Assembly: GCA_017511965.1 (NCBI GenBank)
Contig: JAFWHT010000034.1
Coordinates: forward strand, 1-46,688
Direction: 5' to 3'
DNA from: Candidatus Saccharimonadota bacterium
Lineage (GTDB): Bacteria; Patescibacteriota; Saccharimonadia; Saccharimonadales; Saccharimonadaceae
Length of the DNA stretch: 46,688 bases
Shown here in pieces: positions 9,358-40,172 of this stretch. A program made the position numbers and the translations under genes. Below the pieces are notes generated by a model. That model did no database searches. It saw only the letters and a list, made by a program, of their open reading frames with translations, and was not told the origin of the DNA. How positions within the stretch are numbered: position 1 is the stretch's first letter; each line of letters begins with the position of its first letter.

Positions 9358-11908
<2,551 letters not shown>

Positions 11909-11947: not shown

Positions 11948-11976
11948 TTGACTTTTTTTTGCTTATGGTTTATTAT
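11948..11976 (+). promoter_or_regulatory. Promoter of the trmD-upstream small RNA
   Basis: TTGACT at 11948-11953, 17 bases, TATTAT at 11971-11976. One of the best -35/-10 pairs in the window; predicted start near 11983. Confidence 0.75.
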
Positions 11977-11982
11977 AAACAT

Positions 11983-12131
11983 AAGCTGGTACGCTTCACA
12001 GGGGTTCCACTGAAAGTTAGTGGAGTGTGGAGACTTACAAAAACAAACAGCGGATTAAAACAAACCAATGTGCCCCAAGGGTGGGCGCGTAACAGCGGGG
12101 AAAGAGGTAAGCGGCGACGCGCCTCTTTTTT
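11983..12131 (+). ncRNA. Candidate structured small RNA, unidentified family
   Basis: A ~148-base transcript with its own strong promoter and a terminator. Near the 5' end CTTCACA pairs with TGTGGAG and, inside it, TTCCACT pairs with AGTGGAG around a 7-base loop, with an unpaired GGGG on one side. An A-rich single-stranded stretch follows. A second hairpin (GTGCCC against GGGCGC) exposes CCCC that could pair with the GGGG bulge as a pseudoknot. A 66-codon frame (11959-12159) runs through it but starts upstream of the predicted transcript and looks non-coding. I did not recognise SRP, 6S, tmRNA, RNase P or a known riboswitch. It is separated from trmD by its terminator and the trmD -10 box, so it is not a trmD leader. 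Confidence 0.6.
12103..12131 (+). terminator. Intrinsic terminator of the small RNA
   Basis: AGAGG pairs with CCTCT, with an inner GCG/CGC pairing, followed by TTTTTT. Confidence 0.75.
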
Positions 12132-12135
12132 ATGG

Positions 12136-12141
12136 TATAAT
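12136..12141 (+). promoter_or_regulatory. -10 box of trmD
   Basis: GGTATAAT ending 10 bases before the trmD ATG; the predicted leader is only a few bases. It follows directly on the terminator of the small RNA. Confidence 0.6.
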
Positions 12142-12151
12142 ATAAACAAAT

Positions 12152-12808
12152 ATGATTAAATTTACGATTATTACATTGTTTAAAGAAGCGGTAGAGCCGT
12201 ATTTGAAATCGTCGATGATGGAGAAGGCAGTGCAAAAGGGGTTGGCGGAATTTTCGTTTGTGAATTTGCGTGATTTTGGGCTTGGGCCACATAAATCAGT
12301 TGATGATACTCCTTATGGAGGAGGCGATGGAATGGTGTTTAGGTGCGAGCCGGTTTTTGCTGCAGTAGAATCTATTAAAGCAAAGGATCCAGACGCCAAA
12401 GTTATTTTACCAACACCGGTAGGGGAAATTTGGAATCAAGAGATGGCAAGAGAATTTACAAAAAATTCTCATTACATTATTATCTGTCCACATTATGAGG
12501 GGTATGATGAAAGAATTTTGCAACTAGTTGATTATAAAGTTTCGCTTGGGAAGTATGTTTTGACAGGTGGAGAATTGCCGGCGCTAATTATTGTTGATTC
12601 GGTAGTTCGGTTGATTCCGGGAGTTTTGGGTGGAGAAACTTCGGCAGAGATCGAATCGTTTTCGGAGGGGGATAATTTGGAATATCCACAATATACGAGA
12701 CCGGAAGATTTTCGAGGAATGAAAGTGCCGGAGGTATTGCTATCAGGTAATCATGGTGAAATTGCAAAATGGCGAGAAGCACACAGTAAAAAAGTGGGTA
12801 CAATATAA
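12152..12808 (+). CDS. trmD: tRNA (guanine37-N1)-methyltransferase
   Basis: Methylates G37 next to the anticodon of tRNAs reading CNN codons, preventing frameshifts. The 218-aa protein has the SPOUT-fold signatures of TrmD: FTIITLFKEAVEPYLKSSMM at the N-terminus, DDTPYGGGDGMVFRCEPV, CPHYEGYDERI for the knot, and LTGGELPALIIVDSVVRLIPGVLG. The C-terminal domain (YPQYTRPEDFRGMKVPEVLLSGNHGEI) is intact, with little beyond it, so the protein is slightly short but complete. It is followed after 2 bases by the exonuclease gene, which nevertheless has its own -10 box overlapping the trmD stop region. Confidence 0.97.
   Translation: MIKFTIITLFKEAVEPYLKSSMMEKAVQKGLAEFSFVNLRDFGLGPHKSVDDTPYGGGDGMVFRCEPVFAAVESIKAKDPDAKVILPTPVGEIWNQEMAREFTKNSHYIIICPHYEGYDERILQLVDYKVSLGKYVLTGGELPALIIVDSVVRLIPGVLGGETSAEIESFSEGDNLEYPQYTRPEDFRGMKVPEVLLSGNHGEIAKWREAHSKKVGTI
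12799..12804 (+). promoter_or_regulatory. -10 box of exonuclease gene (leaderless type)
   Basis: TACAAT within the last trmD codons, ending 6 bases before the ATG at 12811. Confidence 0.5.
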
Positions 12809-20940: not shown

Positions 20941-21903
20941 ATGGATGAGGTTTTAAAGTTAAAATCTAAATTAAAAGAAATTAATACAAGGGCACGGGGG
21001 ATTTCTGATTTACCGGTAAGTGAACGAGCAGAGTTTGGGCGAAAGATTAATGCAGAGCGAGAACAGGTTTTAGCAGAGATTAAAGCGGTAGAGCAGGTGG
21101 CGCTAGATACGGAAGTTTCGCCGATTGATGTAACGGCGTGGTCGGGGGTAAACGAGGCGATGCCAGAATTTTATCCAGTTACCTTTGGCTCGAAACATCC
21201 TTTGATGACCGAGCTTGACCGAGTGATTGATATTTACCAGATGATGGGGTTTGATGTGGTTGAATCTCGGCAGTTAGATGACGAATTTCATATGTTTGAT
21301 GTTTTGAATTTTCCGAAGGGGCATCCGGCGCGAGATGGGTATGATACTTTCCGGACGGAGGAAGGATTAATTCCGCCGGCACATACCTCGACGATGCAAC
21401 ACCGAGTTTTAAAAGAATACAAGAAGCGACTAGATGAGGGGGGTGCGATTGCAGTGGTGGTGCCGGGGCGAGTGTTTAGAAACGAAGACGTTGACGCGAC
21501 ACATGAGCATACTTTTTATCAGTGCGAGGGAGTTTACGTATCAAAAGATTGCACGCTCTCTCAAATGCTCGGGATTTTAAGAGAGTTTTTTGAGAAGTAT
21601 TATGAACAGAAATTAAACATCAAGACGCAACCTGGGTATTTTCCGTTTACAGAGCCGTCACTTGAATTTATGATCGAGAAGCCAAAATCGCTCGGGGGAA
21701 AGAAAGGTGACTTTCTTGAGATGCTAGGGTGTGGGATGATTCATCCGAATGTGCTTAAGGCGGCGGGGATTGATCCGGAAGAGTATCATGGATTTGCTTG
21801 GGGTGGTGGGATTGATCGGTTGGCGATGCTTAGATATGGACTCTCGGATGTTCGCTTGTTTGAGAGTGGAAACCTTAATTTCTTACGGGAGTTTAGTTTA
21901 TGA
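20941..21903 (+). CDS. pheS: Phenylalanine-tRNA ligase alpha subunit
   Basis: Catalytic subunit of the class II PheRS heterotetramer. A short N-terminal coiled coil (~1-45) replaces the long helical arm; then come motif 1 (HPLMTELDRVIDIYQMMGF), the FNFPKGHPARDGYDTF-like segment, motif 2 (VVVPGRVFRNEDVDATHEHTF) and motif 3 (GFAWGGGIDRLAMLRYGLSDVR). Active-site residues for phenylalanine binding (FTEPSLEFM) are present. The 320-aa length is near normal. The stop overlaps the pheT start (ATGA-type, 4 bases), the usual coupling that balances the two subunits. Confidence 0.97.
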   Translation: MDEVLKLKSKLKEINTRARGISDLPVSERAEFGRKINAEREQVLAEIKAVEQVALDTEVSPIDVTAWSGVNEAMPEFYPVTFGSKHPLMTELDRVIDIYQMMGFDVVESRQLDDEFHMFDVLNFPKGHPARDGYDTFRTEEGLIPPAHTSTMQHRVLKEYKKRLDEGGAIAVVVPGRVFRNEDVDATHEHTFYQCEGVYVSKDCTLSQMLGILREFFEKYYEQKLNIKTQPGYFPFTEPSLEFMIEKPKSLGGKKGDFLEMLGCGMIHPNVLKAAGIDPEEYHGFAWGGGIDRLAMLRYGLSDVRLFESGNLNFLREFSL

Positions 21904-24332
21904 AAATTAGTTTGAATTGGTTAAAAGAGTATGTAAACGTGCCGGAGGGGATAACGAATACAGAACTAATTTCTTTAATTGGCTCACGATTGGTTGAGGT
22001 TGAGGGAGTAATTGACGAGACGCATAAATATGACGGAATTACCGTTGTTAGGGTTGAGAAGGCAGAAAAGATACCTGACACACATTTGACACTTTGTCAA
22101 GTTTATGATGGTTCGCCAGAATTAGTGCAAGTGGTTTGTGGGGCGCCGAACGTAAGAGAAGGGATGCTGGCGGCTTGGATTCGACCGGGGGCGATTGTGC
22201 CAGCTTCGGTACACGAGGCGGCCCCGTTTGTGATCGGAAAGCGCAAGATGCTTTCAAAATACGATTCAAACGGGATGCTCGCGGGAGCAGATGAGTTAGA
22301 TTTTGGGGATGACCATTCGGGGATTGTTGAGATTGATCCTTCGATGGCGAAGCCGGGGGATACGCTTGCGGATGTTTTTGAGCTTAATGACTTAATTTTA
22401 GAGATTGAGAATAAATCGTTAACACATCGCCCGGATTGTTTTGGAATTATTGGGTTTGCAAGGGAAGTTGCCGGTATCTTAGGGATAAAGTTTGATTCAG
22501 TTTCCGAGACCGTGTCCCGAAATTCTTACGAGAATTTCGAAGCGAGTGAGCCCCGTGACGACGGGAGCGAACGAGCGTGGTCGAGGGAACTGGAATCAGA
22601 CTTTATCACAATTGATTCTGATGTTTGCTCGCGCTATACTGCGGTTGTTCTCGAAAAGCATGGGGAGTTGGGCAAGAAGTATTTGACACTTCAAGATACA
22701 AGGCTCGCAAAGGCTGGGATGAAGCCGGTTGAAAGAATTGTGGATGCGACGAATTATCTGATGCTTTTAACAGGGCAGCCACTTCATGCGTTTGATTTAG
22801 ATAAATTTATTAAAGTTGGGAATACAGAAAAGCCGAAAATTATTGTTCGATTAGCGAAAAAAGGCGAAAAATTAGTTTTGCTTGATGGAAAAGAAATTAT
22901 TTGCAACGAAAATGATGTCTTAATTACGTCAAACGATGTGCCGGTGGCGCTAGCCGGAGCGATGGGTGGCGAATCGACGATGATTGATGAAAATACGCGG
23001 AATATCTTGCTTGAGTCGGCGACATTTAGTCTTTATAATCTCAGAAAGACACAAATGGATCACGGAATCTTTTCGGAGGCGATTACGAGATTTACGAAAG
23101 GGCAACCACCGTATCAAACGATGGAAGTAGCTTTAGAATGTGCCGAAATGTTAAAAGATGGTTTTAAAATCGCCGGGATTGCAGATAATTATCCAAAACC
23201 AGAAGAAAGTAATGTTGTAAAAAATACAACGACTGAAATCAATAATCTTCTTGGGACAGATTATGAAAAAGACTTAATCATTCAGACACTTACGAACGTG
23301 GGATTTCAAGTTAATGTCTCGACGGGTCCTGCCGCCGCATCTTCCCCCGCCGTCGCAGGGGCTCCGTCGGGGGTCCTCGCCAAGAAAGCGTCACCCGTCG
23401 ATATATTGTCTATCGAAAGCCCAGCCTGGCGGACGGATATCCATATTAAAGAAGACATTATTGAGGAAGTTGGGCGACTGCTCGGATATGATAATATCGA
23501 GCCAACTTTGCCTCTTCATCGAACGGCAGAAAAGAACGCCAGTCTAGAATTGAAGCGGGAAATTCGGAATTGCTTGTCGATGTATGGCGCGAATGAAGTT
23601 TTGACCTATAGCTTTGTTAGTGAAAAATTACTTGAAAAAGCGAAGCAGGACAAGAAAAATTCATATAAAATTGTCAATTCGATTTCGCCGGAATTACAAT
23701 ATATTAGGCAGTCGATTGTGCCGAGTTTACTTGAGAAAACGTTTTTGAATGAGAAATTGCCAGTCGAGAAGTTTGCGATTTTTGAGATGAACCAGGTTTA
23801 TCGAAAAGAGTGGGGGGTAACAAAAGAAAATGTGCCAGTTGAAAGAAATTCGCTTGGGTTTGTTGTGGCAGAGAGAAAGGGCGAGGGGACAGCGTTTTAC
23901 AAGGCAAAAAAATATGTGGAACTGATTTTTAGAGAAATGCAGATTGTTGCAGAATATGTTCCGATCAAGAGCAAAACGGCAGACACAAAGCCGTTTGAGC
24001 CAAAGCGCTCGGCAGAGATTTTGGTAAATGGTGAATATGTAGGGGTGGTGGGTGAATTCAAAAATTCGGTGCGACATGAATTTAAGTTGGCAGATTATTT
24101 GGCAGGATTTGAAATTGACCTTGATTTGGTTTTGGAATATCGTTCGAATAAAAAAGAGATTAAAATTGGCGCGAAAAAGACAGAAGATTTAACGGTTGCG
24201 ACGACGAAGAGCTACGCAGAAACTTTAAAAGAAGTGCAAGAAAAATATCCGGAAGCAGAGATTAGCCCGCTATCAATTTATCAGGCTGAAGGCGAAGAAA
24301 AGAAAAACATTTCATTTAGAATTGCATTTTAG
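21900..24332 (+). CDS. pheT: Phenylalanine-tRNA ligase beta subunit with two repeat insertions
   Basis: Partner of PheS, carrying tRNA-binding and editing functions. Domains in order: N-terminal B1 (ISLNWLKEYVNVPEGI), tRNA-binding OB fold (~40-150, VVRVEKAEKIPDTHLTLCQV), B3/B4 editing region (RIVDATNYLMLLTGQPLHAFD, LAGAMGGEST), B5 and the catalytic-like core. Two segments do not belong: residues ~196-236, reading [18 protein letters not shown], and ~472-503, reading STGPAAASSPAVAGAPSG. Both are translated palindromic repeats. The C-terminus stops at NISFRIAF, in the middle of the usual FDX-ACB anticodon-binding fold, roughly 40 residues early; this could be a lineage trait or a frame break. 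Confidence 0.95.
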   Translation: MKISLNWLKEYVNVPEGITNTELISLIGSRLVEVEGVIDETHKYDGITVVRVEKAEKIPDTHLTLCQVYDGSPELVQVVCGAPNVREGMLAAWIRPGAIVPASVHEAAPFVIGKRKMLSKYDSNGMLAGADELDFGDDHSGIVEIDPSMAKPGDTLADVFELNDLILEIENKSLTHRPDCFGIIGFAREVAGILGIKFDSVSETVSRNSYENFEASEPRDDGSERAWSRELESDFITIDSDVCSRYTAVVLEKHGELGKKYLTLQDTRLAKAGMKPVERIVDATNYLMLLTGQPLHAFDLDKFIKVGNTEKPKIIVRLAKKGEKLVLLDGKEIICNENDVLITSNDVPVALAGAMGGESTMIDENTRNILLESATFSLYNLRKTQMDHGIFSEAITRFTKGQPPYQTMEVALECAEMLKDGFKIAGIADNYPKPEESNVVKNTTTEINNLLGTDYEKDLIIQTLTNVGFQVNVSTGPAAASSPAVAGAPSGVLAKKASPVDILSIESPAWRTDIHIKEDIIEEVGRLLGYDNIEPTLPLHRTAEKNASLELKREIRNCLSMYGANEVLTYSFVSEKLLEKAKQDKKNSYKIVNSISPELQYIRQSIVPSLLEKTFLNEKLPVEKFAIFEMNQVYRKEWGVTKENVPVERNSLGFVVAERKGEGTAFYKAKKYVELIFREMQIVAEYVPIKSKTADTKPFEPKRSAEILVNGEYVGVVGEFKNSVRHEFKLADYLAGFEIDLDLVLEYRSNKKEIKIGAKKTEDLTVATTKSYAETLKEVQEKYPEAEISPLSIYQAEGEEKKNISFRIAF
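22484..22607 (+). repeat. Palindromic protein-coding repeat, copy C (pheT)
   Basis: A 124-base palindrome with arms 22484-22511 and 22579-22607 (24 of 29 positions matching as an inverted repeat). The arm sequence (GATAAAGT, TGATT, CAGTT) occurs on both sides here and in no other copy. The core shares GACCGTGTCCCGAAATTCT and AGAATTTCGAAGCGAGTGAG with the two obgE copies, in the same orientation and frame relative to the host gene. The insertion lies in a linker before a conserved CSRYTAVVLE segment. Confidence 0.9.
23313..23407 (+). repeat. Second-type GC-rich palindromic insertion in pheT
   Basis: A 95-base insertion far more GC-rich than its surroundings. TCGACGGGT at 23319-23327 is perfectly inverted as ACCCGTCGA at 23393-23401, and the match extends outward to 13 of 15 positions. 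Inside, CCCCCG and CGGGGG form a second stem. It is translated in frame as low-complexity STGPAAASSPAVAGAPSGVL. The core is unrelated to the obgE/pheT type-1 repeat. Confidence 0.75.
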
Positions 24333-36944: not shown

Positions 36945-39900
36945 ATGAGGTCAATAGGACAAAAACTTGGCAAAATCATTCTGTGCGGAATTTTCGCACT
37001 AATCTTTATCATCGGCAACGGAAAATCAGTTTCGGCCCTTGATATCGAACAAAAAGACCTTTCCGTCTCCGCCCACAGCTCCACCCTAACCATCCATAAT
37101 AACGGCATCGGGACCAACGACTTCCAAATCACCCCACAGCTAGAATTCAATAAACTTGGCGACTTCATCACCTACAAACTCATCCTTCATAACAACGATG
37201 GCAAGAGATACAAAATCACAAGCGTCAAAGACGACAACGCTAACGACGCTATCGAGCTTACCTATATCTACCCCACAGACCTAGATACTACCGACAAATC
37301 CCTAGAGCTCACCATTAAATACGTCAAAAAATCCACCACTCCACTCCAGACCGTCACTGCTACTATTAGCCTGGTAGATGAAGACGACGTATCACAGCAA
37401 ATTACCATCGTCGTCCCAAATACTGGCACCAACACCATCACTGACACTCGCTCTGCCACCATCCGTAATACCATCTTTATCTACGCCGCCGTCGCTACCG
37501 CTATCATCACCATATATATAATAGTCCGCCGCAAATACCAAAGAGCCAGAAAATCCACCAAACTCCCTAAAATCCTCGTCACTACCACCCTACTTCTCGG
37601 CCTTATCCCTGTAGCTGTGATTGCCGCTACTGCCAAAGACCTCCAATTTATCATCGAATTTAACAGTATCACGCTTAACGGCCCTTACACTATGACTTTT
37701 GAATCAAACGGTGGCACACCTGTCCCAACTCAAACCGTAGACCACAACACCTACGCTACCAAACCACAAAATCCAACCAAACCAGGCTACACTTTTTCCA
37801 AATGGTTAGATGAAACTAACACCGAGTTTGATTTTACGGCCACCAAAGTCACCAAAGATTACAGCCTCACCGCCACCTACACCCTAGACACTTACCAGCT
37901 AAACCTAGACCTCGCAGGCGGCACCGCAGGCACTCCAGCAAACCCAATCAGCTATACCTACGAAGACAACGACATTACTCTTACCAACCCCACCAAAGAC
38001 CACTACGATTTCGCAGGCTGGATTACCCCAACCGACAACACCCCACATCTCACCGTCACTATCCCCAAAAACTCCACAGGCGACAAATCCTATATTGCCA
38101 CCTGGACGGAAAAATCATACACTGTCACCTTTGACACCAACGGCGGCACCCCCACCCCACAACCTCAAACCATCAAATACCAACAATACGCCACCGAACC
38201 TACTACAAACCCATCCAAAAACGGCTACAACTTCAAAGGCTGGCAGCTAAACAACGCCGACTACGACTTCACTAACACTAAAATCACAGGCGACATCACC
38301 CTCACCGCCAACTACGAAGCCATCAAATACACTATAAACTACAACCTAAACGGCGGCACGGAAGGCACTCCCGCAAACCCCACCGAATACACCATTGAAA
38401 CCCCAGATTTCACCCTAGCAAACCCCACCAAGCCAAACGTCGCCTTCGCAGGCTGGACCACCCCAACAGACAACACTCTCCGAAAAACCGTCACCATCAC
38501 CCAGGGCTCCACTGGCGACAAAACTTTCATCGCCAACTACAAACCAGCCTACACGGTCACTTACGACACCAACGGTGGCGACCCGATTAACCCATCCAGC
38601 TTCCTCGTTGGTGAAAACGACCAAATCGGCACCCTTATTGACGCCACCAAAGACCACTACGATTTCGTTGGCTGGTATATCGGCTCCACCCCGATTGACG
38701 AAACTTACGAAGTCACTGGCGATATCATCATTACCGCTCACTACACTCCACACAAATACACGATTGCTTATAATCTAAACGGCGGCACCGAAACCACCAA
38801 CCCCACCGAATACACCATTGAAACCCCCGATTTCCCTCTCGCCGAGCCTACCCCGCCATCCACCGACAAACGCTTCAAAGGCTGGACCACCCCGACCAAC
38901 AACACCCCGACAAAATCTGTCACTATTTCACAGGGCACCACGGGCGACCTCACCTTTACCGCAGTTTATCAAACCCTCTTTACCGTCACCTTTGACCCAG
39001 GTAGCGAAGGCACAATTCCAGACAGCGATAAAACCAGACAAGTCTGGGAAGATGACCCAATCGGCACTCTGCCAGCCAATCCTAACGTTACAGATCCATT
39101 AAAAATATTCAATTGTTGGGGAGTAAATAATGTTTGTATTGATGCTACTTATACTGTTACTGGCGATACAACAGTAGTTGCCATTTATAAAGATAAAACA
39201 ACAACTACGGTTATTAACGACTTAAACGGTAAAAACGTTACTGATACCTGCACTCAAGCATCATACGTTGCATCTCTTGACTATAACGGCAACAGAAGAT
39301 ATGTCGGCAGATGCCCTAAAAACTACGTTTACTTTAACTGTGACAGAAATAAAGGTAGCCAATTTGATATTTACTCCACTGAAGCCGAAGAAGATGCTGC
39401 TCGTTGTGAATTGTGGCGTATCATCGGCACCTTTGATATATCAAACGGCACTAAAACCGAAAAAAGAACTAAAATAGTCAGAGCAAGTTCTATTGGCAAT
39501 TTCGTGCTTGATAATGATAATTATAGCGGAACTGCTCAATGGGGGAAGAACGCACTGTCTATTAGATTAAATAATACAGGTAGTGGCGGATACCTAAACA
39601 ACGATACAAGTTACGGTCTAAAAAATCCTGCCGCCGAAACTGGTATATTCAAAAGATATTACAAAGCCCAAGATTACATAGAGGATGCTCTTTGGCATAT
39701 TGGTAACCCCACTGGAACTTCTAATGATGTTGGAAAAAGATTTGCCTATACGCTAGGAAATGATATGTATGTTGGACAAAAAACAGTCCCTCTGGACTAT
39801 GTGGATGGCGATACGAACGTTTTAACCTGGAAGGGCAAAGTTGGACTACCAAATATATCGGATTTTATGTTTGCTTCTGATAGGGATGTTACTTATTCTC

Positions 39901-40172
39901 ATTGTGGCAGAACTAATCTGTCGGTATACTCTGGCAACAATTGTGTGGATGCTAGCTGGATGCCATACACTAGATTAATGAGTGTTGTAGGGAATAATGG
40001 TAGTAGTCGTATGCTTAGCACTTGGAATGGAACGTTTAGATATGTCTATAATGGTTCTTTCCCTAACAATGCGGAACCTACCGCTCCAGCAGTTTACCTA
40101 AAAGCCAACGTCACGATAAAAGACGGCGACGGCTCCCTCGCAACCCCATTCATCCTCGGCATCGACGAGTAA
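36945..40172 (+). CDS. Giant surface adhesin with InlB-type B repeats and a C-terminal DUF6273-like domain
   Basis: A 1075-aa surface protein. A signal peptide (~1-27) and a small external domain lead to a helix (~175-193, TIFIYAAVATAIITIYIIV) with a basic stop (RRKYQRARK); a second hydrophobic segment at ~208-230 looks like another signal peptide. Seven B-repeat units of ~70 residues follow (~248-750), each opening YTVTFDTNGG-like and ending in GW or AxY strands, as in Listeria/Bacteroides repeat adhesins. The C-terminal ~330 residues (CELWRIIGTFD, SIRLNN, GLPNISDFMFASD, APAVYLKANVTI) resemble DUF6273. Codons are strongly C-rich up to ~39085, AT-rich from there to ~40095, then C-rich again. 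It probably mediates contact with a host cell. Confidence 0.85.
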   Translation: MRSIGQKLGKIILCGIFALIFIIGNGKSVSALDIEQKDLSVSAHSSTLTIHNNGIGTNDFQITPQLEFNKLGDFITYKLILHNNDGKRYKITSVKDDNANDAIELTYIYPTDLDTTDKSLELTIKYVKKSTTPLQTVTATISLVDEDDVSQQITIVVPNTGTNTITDTRSATIRNTIFIYAAVATAIITIYIIVRRKYQRARKSTKLPKILVTTTLLLGLIPVAVIAATAKDLQFIIEFNSITLNGPYTMTFESNGGTPVPTQTVDHNTYATKPQNPTKPGYTFSKWLDETNTEFDFTATKVTKDYSLTATYTLDTYQLNLDLAGGTAGTPANPISYTYEDNDITLTNPTKDHYDFAGWITPTDNTPHLTVTIPKNSTGDKSYIATWTEKSYTVTFDTNGGTPTPQPQTIKYQQYATEPTTNPSKNGYNFKGWQLNNADYDFTNTKITGDITLTANYEAIKYTINYNLNGGTEGTPANPTEYTIETPDFTLANPTKPNVAFAGWTTPTDNTLRKTVTITQGSTGDKTFIANYKPAYTVTYDTNGGDPINPSSFLVGENDQIGTLIDATKDHYDFVGWYIGSTPIDETYEVTGDIIITAHYTPHKYTIAYNLNGGTETTNPTEYTIETPDFPLAEPTPPSTDKRFKGWTTPTNNTPTKSVTISQGTTGDLTFTAVYQTLFTVTFDPGSEGTIPDSDKTRQVWEDDPIGTLPANPNVTDPLKIFNCWGVNNVCIDATYTVTGDTTVVAIYKDKTTTTVINDLNGKNVTDTCTQASYVASLDYNGNRRYVGRCPKNYVYFNCDRNKGSQFDIYSTEAEEDAARCELWRIIGTFDISNGTKTEKRTKIVRASSIGNFVLDNDNYSGTAQWGKNALSIRLNNTGSGGYLNNDTSYGLKNPAAETGIFKRYYKAQDYIEDALWHIGNPTGTSNDVGKRFAYTLGNDMYVGQKTVPLDYVDGDTNVLTWKGKVGLPNISDFMFASDRDVTYSHCGRTNLSVYSGNNCVDASWMPYTRLMSVVGNNGSSRMLSTWNGTFRYVYNGSFPNNAEPTAPAVYLKANVTIKDGDGSLATPFILGIDE

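Follow-up and report, generated by a model that had tools for sequence, protein, structure and literature searches.

A putative gene for a small structured noncoding RNA conserved in a family of Saccharibacteria

What is encoded between obgE and trmD in this genome of Candidatus Saccharibacteria? In the window, by which we mean the whole analysed stretch of 46,688 nucleotides, the interval between obgE (complement 10421-11908) and trmD (12152-12808) contains a segment (11948-12131) that consists of a promoter, a folded core of about 112 nucleotides (11985-12096) and a terminator, all on the plus strand. Our reading, which we hold with a probability of roughly 80%, is that this segment is the gene of a structured small RNA that is noncoding and acts in trans, belonging to a family outside Rfam with a core of about 75-125 nucleotides followed by a terminator. 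The evidence is comparative throughout, and the probability refers to this identity and not to a function.

The promoter (11948-11976) is composed of a -35 box, TTGACT (11948-11953), a spacer of 17 nucleotides and a -10 box, TATTAT (11971-11976), and agrees with the consensus at 10 of 12 positions; the RNA would be expected to start at about position 11983-11985. Downstream of the core lies an intrinsic terminator (12097-12131) with the stem AAAGAGG..CCUCUUU and a U-run, for which we calculated -15.8 kcal/mol (z -3.23); a scan with a simple terminator pattern called no terminator in the RNA region. The relatives of this RNA are of a long type, to which the window belongs, and a more distant short type, and the promoter has the same spacing in relatives. 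All 78 long-type loci with full flanks reached a promoter score of at least 9/12, compared to 11% of shuffled flanks, and in 70 of these 78 the -10 box ends 8 nucleotides 5´ of the RNA; among the short-type loci just 15 of 47 reached this score. A hairpin of -8 kcal/mol or lower ahead of a T-run was present in 75 of 78 long-type loci (shuffles 4%) and in 36 of 47 short-type loci (shuffles 8%), where it has to be considered that all shuffle controls of this study ignore the relatedness among the sequences. Thus, both the near-consensus promoter and the terminator described in the first-pass annotation are present and have counterparts in relatives, and the own promoter and terminator that characterise a small RNA gene are found here as sequence signals only.

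For the region 11981-12133 the calculated folding energy is -52.7 kcal/mol (z -3.61), which none of 200 shuffled sequences equalled. The closing stem, P1, is formed by a 5´ arm, GCUGGUACGC (11985-11994), and a 3´ arm, GCGUAACAGC (12087-12096), with mostly a mismatch at position 5, as seen in the comparison of sequences. Exchanges between A-U and G-C were found at pair 7 and between C-G and U-A at pairs 2 and 10, with additional exchanges in single lineages (tally of 159 sequences, L251 included). At pair 7, the 46 short types contain A-U 24 times, G-C 20 times and G-U twice. Long and short types share P1, the inner stem P2, an A-rich loop and the strand GGUGGGC. The core lengths vary freely modulo 3, and a coding reading was rejected on this ground. 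The sequences used for these comparisons are a selection: the first core set omits four incomplete or unusual ones, the first alignment contains 52 of 86 cores after thinning, and the second contains 46 of 47 (L025 was left out).

Stem P2 joins GGGG (12001-12004) to CCCC (12073-12076), as judged from arm comparisons. In distant relatives its arms change while pairing is kept, the variants being GGGGUAC/GUGCCCC, GGGGCUUU/AAAGCCCC, GGGUUU/AAACCC, GGGAC/GUCCC, GGCUCUUU/AAAGAGCC, GCGGCG/CGCCGC, GCGGUA/UACCGC, GCGACG/CGUCGC and GGGUUCA/UGAACCC. When arms were swapped between sequences, the mean score was higher for the own arms than for the swapped ones, both in the order-level set (18.43 vs 14.19, sd 0.61, the highest of 30 swaps reaching 15.27; 30 of 31 sequences used, L251 being wrongly cut and left out) and in the set of 53 short-type sequences (16.62 vs 15.52, sd 0.24; best 15.96); in one of the P2 arm comparisons L190 was wrongly parsed. 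In the long type, in which the arms are nearly invariant, the swap gave no covariation signal (12.45 vs 12.53). Given an alignment rich in long types, RNAalifold favoured a different fold containing a 3´ hairpin, GUGCCC/GGGCGC, that has no two-sided change, and for the short types it retained a shorter form of this hairpin beside P1; both consensus folds thus prefer a 3´ hairpin (GCCC/GGGC) to P2. As a replacement of P2 this hairpin was rejected, since the arm swaps and the compensatory changes seen in distant relatives speak for P2, but both may alternate. The covariation of GGGG and CCCC that the first-pass annotation had proposed to check is therefore found in distant relatives, and P1 and P2 are supported as closing and inner stem by compensatory changes across the order.

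Inside P2, the A-rich linker noted earlier is indeed present at about 12037-12069 as a loop that is predicted to be mostly single-stranded and contains conserved AAAYA motifs; the 40 nucleotides 5´ of the P2 3´ arm have a mean A fraction of 0.55-0.62. Between P2 and P1 lies the near-invariant strand GGGUGGGC (12079-12086). GGUGGGC was found in 157 of 158 sequences and the complete GGGUGGGC in 152, the first six bases being invariant by construction since the strand was located by GGUGGG. The loop and the strand are the likely contact sites of the RNA.

The 5´ half of the core can form a further hairpin, P3, in which CUUCACA (11994-12000) pairs with UGUGGAG (12026-12032), and the long type has in addition an accessory hairpin, P4 (UUCCACU/AGUGGAG, 12005-12025), which is absent from short-type relatives. 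P3 crosses P2, and therefore a pseudoknot is possible. The pairing CUUCACA/UGUGGAG had also been put forward for a covariation check, and the outcome was mixed. In the type of the window 99.1% of the cells are compatible with pairing and there is no two-sided change, and a rival nested extension, UUCAC/GUGGG, which competes for the P3 bases, is paired in 91.9% of cells in the 52-sequence alignment; the short types vary the UUCAC 5´ segment of this extension while GGGUGGGC stays. The short-type equivalent of P3 does covary, with 100 of 156 position pairs (39 of 47 sequences, the other 8 being dropped as the GGGG-CC pattern is absent) versus 75.0 (sd 5.4) in shuffles, none of 5000 of which scored as high. 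Helices kept by compensatory changes, as expected for a structured RNA, were thus observed for P1 and P2 and, in the short types, for P3. P2 and P3 are each supported singly, and in the long type of the window a P2-P3 pseudoknot may well form.

In relatives P3 shares bases with P1, therefore the folds may switch. P1 bases 7-10 have a local partner in 26 of 47 short types versus 3.7 (sd 1.8) in shuffles, and short-type P3 possibly extends onto two G residues from the P2 arm and onto four bases of P1. In folds of nascent prefixes, P1 bases 8-10 had a local partner in 35 of 53 sequences in one set (shuffles 13.0, sd 3.4) and in 22 of 30 in another (shuffles 5.7, sd 1.9); in long-type prefixes such local pairing was found in 3 of 75 (shuffles 23). 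P2 and P3 may therefore alternate in the short types, and an ordered or switching fold may exist as read from the short-type overlap, an overlap that the long type does not show.

How widely is this RNA kept? The first-pass annotation had made its proposal depend on conservation in relatives, and a covariance model (R1) built from 52 relatives and run on 392 class-level genomes with a cut-off of E≤0.01 found the RNA in 268 of them. Split by row count, the matches comprise 96 of 103 genomes of the genus, 134 of 139 genomes in other genera of the family and 38 of 150 others, with the 104 unlisted misses taken as lying outside the family since the rows were ordered by kinship; for the family of the window this gives 230 of 242 genomes (about 95%). 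A miss may reflect either an incomplete draft assembly or a true loss. Every positive genome has one match with the exception of G354, and the RNA gene is present in a single copy in the window's own genome of 695 kb. The R1 count was preferred to a first BLAST survey with E≤1 (136 of 151 genomes) because many of the BLAST matches were short and occurred by chance. A second model (R2), built from 46 short-type relatives, matched 27 of 379 genomes across the phylum; among the genomes listed these were 24 of 24 at the family level and 3 of 8 of the same order, and no match was found beyond the order in these 379 genomes. A follow-up with R2 on 40 order-level genomes matched 39, in a set that was preselected and contained 38 R1-positive genomes and one R2-positive genome. 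By these matches, the RNA is kept almost universally in the family of the window and can be followed through the order; forms that are more distant and escape both models could exist. An exact 20-base stretch of the RNA was absent from viral contigs, a search by which only close copies are detectable.

The position directly 5´ of trmD on the same strand, in the window as well as in many relatives of the genus, raises the possibility of a cis-acting leader or riboswitch controlling trmD. We regard this as very improbable, since the terminator is followed by a fresh -10 box ahead of trmD: an extended -10 box, TGG TATAAT (-10 hexamer 12136-12141, plus strand), read from the sequence, lies outside the RNA and ends 10 nucleotides before the ATG at 12152, so that trmD seems to be transcribed from a promoter of its own into a nearly leaderless mRNA. 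Among 79 long-type loci trmD follows the RNA in the same orientation, precedes it, is inverted or lies out of reach, and the linkage is inflated since most of these loci were retrieved via trmD; of the 18 long-type loci listed for a search with the RNA only, the locus of the window is the single one in which trmD follows in the same orientation. In relatives the RNA adjoins obg, a head-to-head gene for an RRM protein, a tRNA (with the RNA before it, as judged by eye) or other genes, often facing away from them, and the neighbouring proteins around 122 distinct RNAs fall into 82 clusters. The constant position upstream of a regulated gene that a riboswitch or leader should have is therefore not observed, and with terminator, new -10 box and variable context the earlier claim that the RNA is independent of trmD holds. 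Since neighbours and trmD position vary, we read the locus as a trans-acting RNA gene.

Does this RNA belong to a known family? Rfam 15 at gathering score gave no family for the RNA, and at E≤10 the RNA region gave chance matches only. tmRNA (RF00023) and RNase P RNA (RF00010) were found elsewhere in the own genome, on contig C24, and neither model matched at the RNA locus. Searches of open-access literature on Saccharibacterial small RNAs, on structured RNAs of CPR/Patescibacteria and on RNAseq of TM7x listed no report of this RNA, and the main text of PMC8040213 mentions neither Saccharibacteria nor TM7. Of the identities considered in the first-pass annotation, a housekeeping RNA of SRP or 6S type or a new family, the new family stands, the SRP identity found no support and for 6S there is no positive evidence. 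By these searches, the RNA represents a new family within a known class, that of the conserved orphan small RNAs. In this it is similar to raiA and OLE, well-structured families that also came from comparative genomics and whose function is unknown or was so for long; it differs from them in sequence and architecture and is so far confined to one order of Saccharibacteria.

A diverged SRP RNA of Saccharibacteria would fit a vacant slot, since RF00169 was above the cut-off in none of 101 family genomes, and the bacterial small SRP RNA is alike in size and in its closed hairpin. However, RF00169 matched neither the RNA nor any other place in the own genome, and the RNA seems to lack the SRP helix-8 motif. 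The Ffh M domain (PF02978) had no match in the own genome, the only one searched (97% complete), while 14 of 14 controls were positive; without its canonical partner found there, the RNA is unlikely to be an SRP RNA, and of all readings this is the one we find hardest to credit. As an observation of its own, Saccharibacteria may be without a signal recognition particle, as is reported for Parcubacteria, another lineage of the same radiation, in PMC4508563.

A diverged 6S RNA, binding the RNA polymerase as a mimic of an open promoter, is improbable as well, though less so. Like 6S RNA, the RNA is encoded in a single copy with its own promoter and terminator, is widely kept (near universal in the family) and has paired ends; RF00013 was not matched elsewhere in the own genome, and this model was positive in 8 of 14 controls, so that a diverged 6S could escape it. 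On the other hand, RF00013 did not reach the gathering score and was unmatched in the RNA region even at E≤10. 6S RNA has long duplexes around a central bubble, whereas the RNA described here is shorter (75-125 nucleotides) and carries its A-rich loop on a stem of 6-10 base pairs.

For the function of a trans-acting RNA, our tentative first choice is a role as the RNA component of an RNA-protein complex or as a decoy in the manner of CsrB or 6S. P1 closes the RNA, the inner stem P2 holds the A-rich loop and the near-invariant GGUGGGC strand lies beside P1. During synthesis the 5´ hairpin P3, whose loop contains the P2 5´ arm, could be the first to form, and P2 and P1 would form afterwards, partly displacing P3. 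The A-rich loop and the GGUGGGC strand would then serve as binding sites for a core machine or for an RNA-binding protein of high abundance. Decoys of the CsrB/RsmY type may share this logic, in which copies of a single-stranded motif capture an RNA-binding protein, but they use GGA hairpins and not AAAYA motifs. Next comes a base-pairing regulator whose loop pairs with U-rich stretches of mRNAs, which we consider possible but doubtful: the long, conserved A-rich loop would suit it, yet this loop is of low complexity and the structure is kept beyond the needs of a simple antisense RNA. Rather unlikely is a link to the RRM protein of the head-to-head gene, with the RNA as its partner or its target. 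Of 47 short-type loci 33 have this gene in divergent orientation at 136-451 bp upstream, as do 4 of 79 long-type loci; another 37 loci include 4 with the gene upstream on the opposite strand, and an A-rich loop would suit an RRM; however, none of the 245 genomes positive for PF00076 belongs to the genus of the window, where the RNA is kept, and most order-level loci have no RRM neighbour. Speculative, and slightly more so, is the most far-reaching reading, in which a lineage-specific essential RNA with a switch between 5´ hairpin and P1-P2 would act as a housekeeping RNP of a new kind for a core machine, be it of transcription, translation or protein targeting, in Saccharibacteria, in which these searches found neither a canonical SRP RNA nor a recognisable 6S RNA.

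Some further observations were made in this genome and its relatives. Genes for RRM proteins are present in 141 of 150 genera of the class-level genomes, and the absence from the genus of the window is a notable loss in its own right. Within two conserved genes, a palindrome-bearing repeat of about 58-84 nucleotides lies in frame, twice in obgE (10725-10808 and 11552-11609) and once (22502-22588) in an ORF with phenylalanyl-tRNA synthetase beta domains (21900-24332), adding a nearly identical peptide at all three sites, which recalls the Rickettsia palindromic elements within genes. The region 36945-40172 encodes a repeat protein of 1075 amino acids with Listeria-Bacteroides repeat domains (PF09479, six stretches) and repeats in the DNA, which is perhaps a surface protein.

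Saccharibacteria live on other bacteria, and the genomes in our survey comprise about 0.5-1.5 Mb. Retention of the small RNA in about 95% of the family's genomes sampled, despite this genome reduction, makes it likely that it matters to the cell. It presents a defined target in cultured strains, and the covariance model now allows its annotation.
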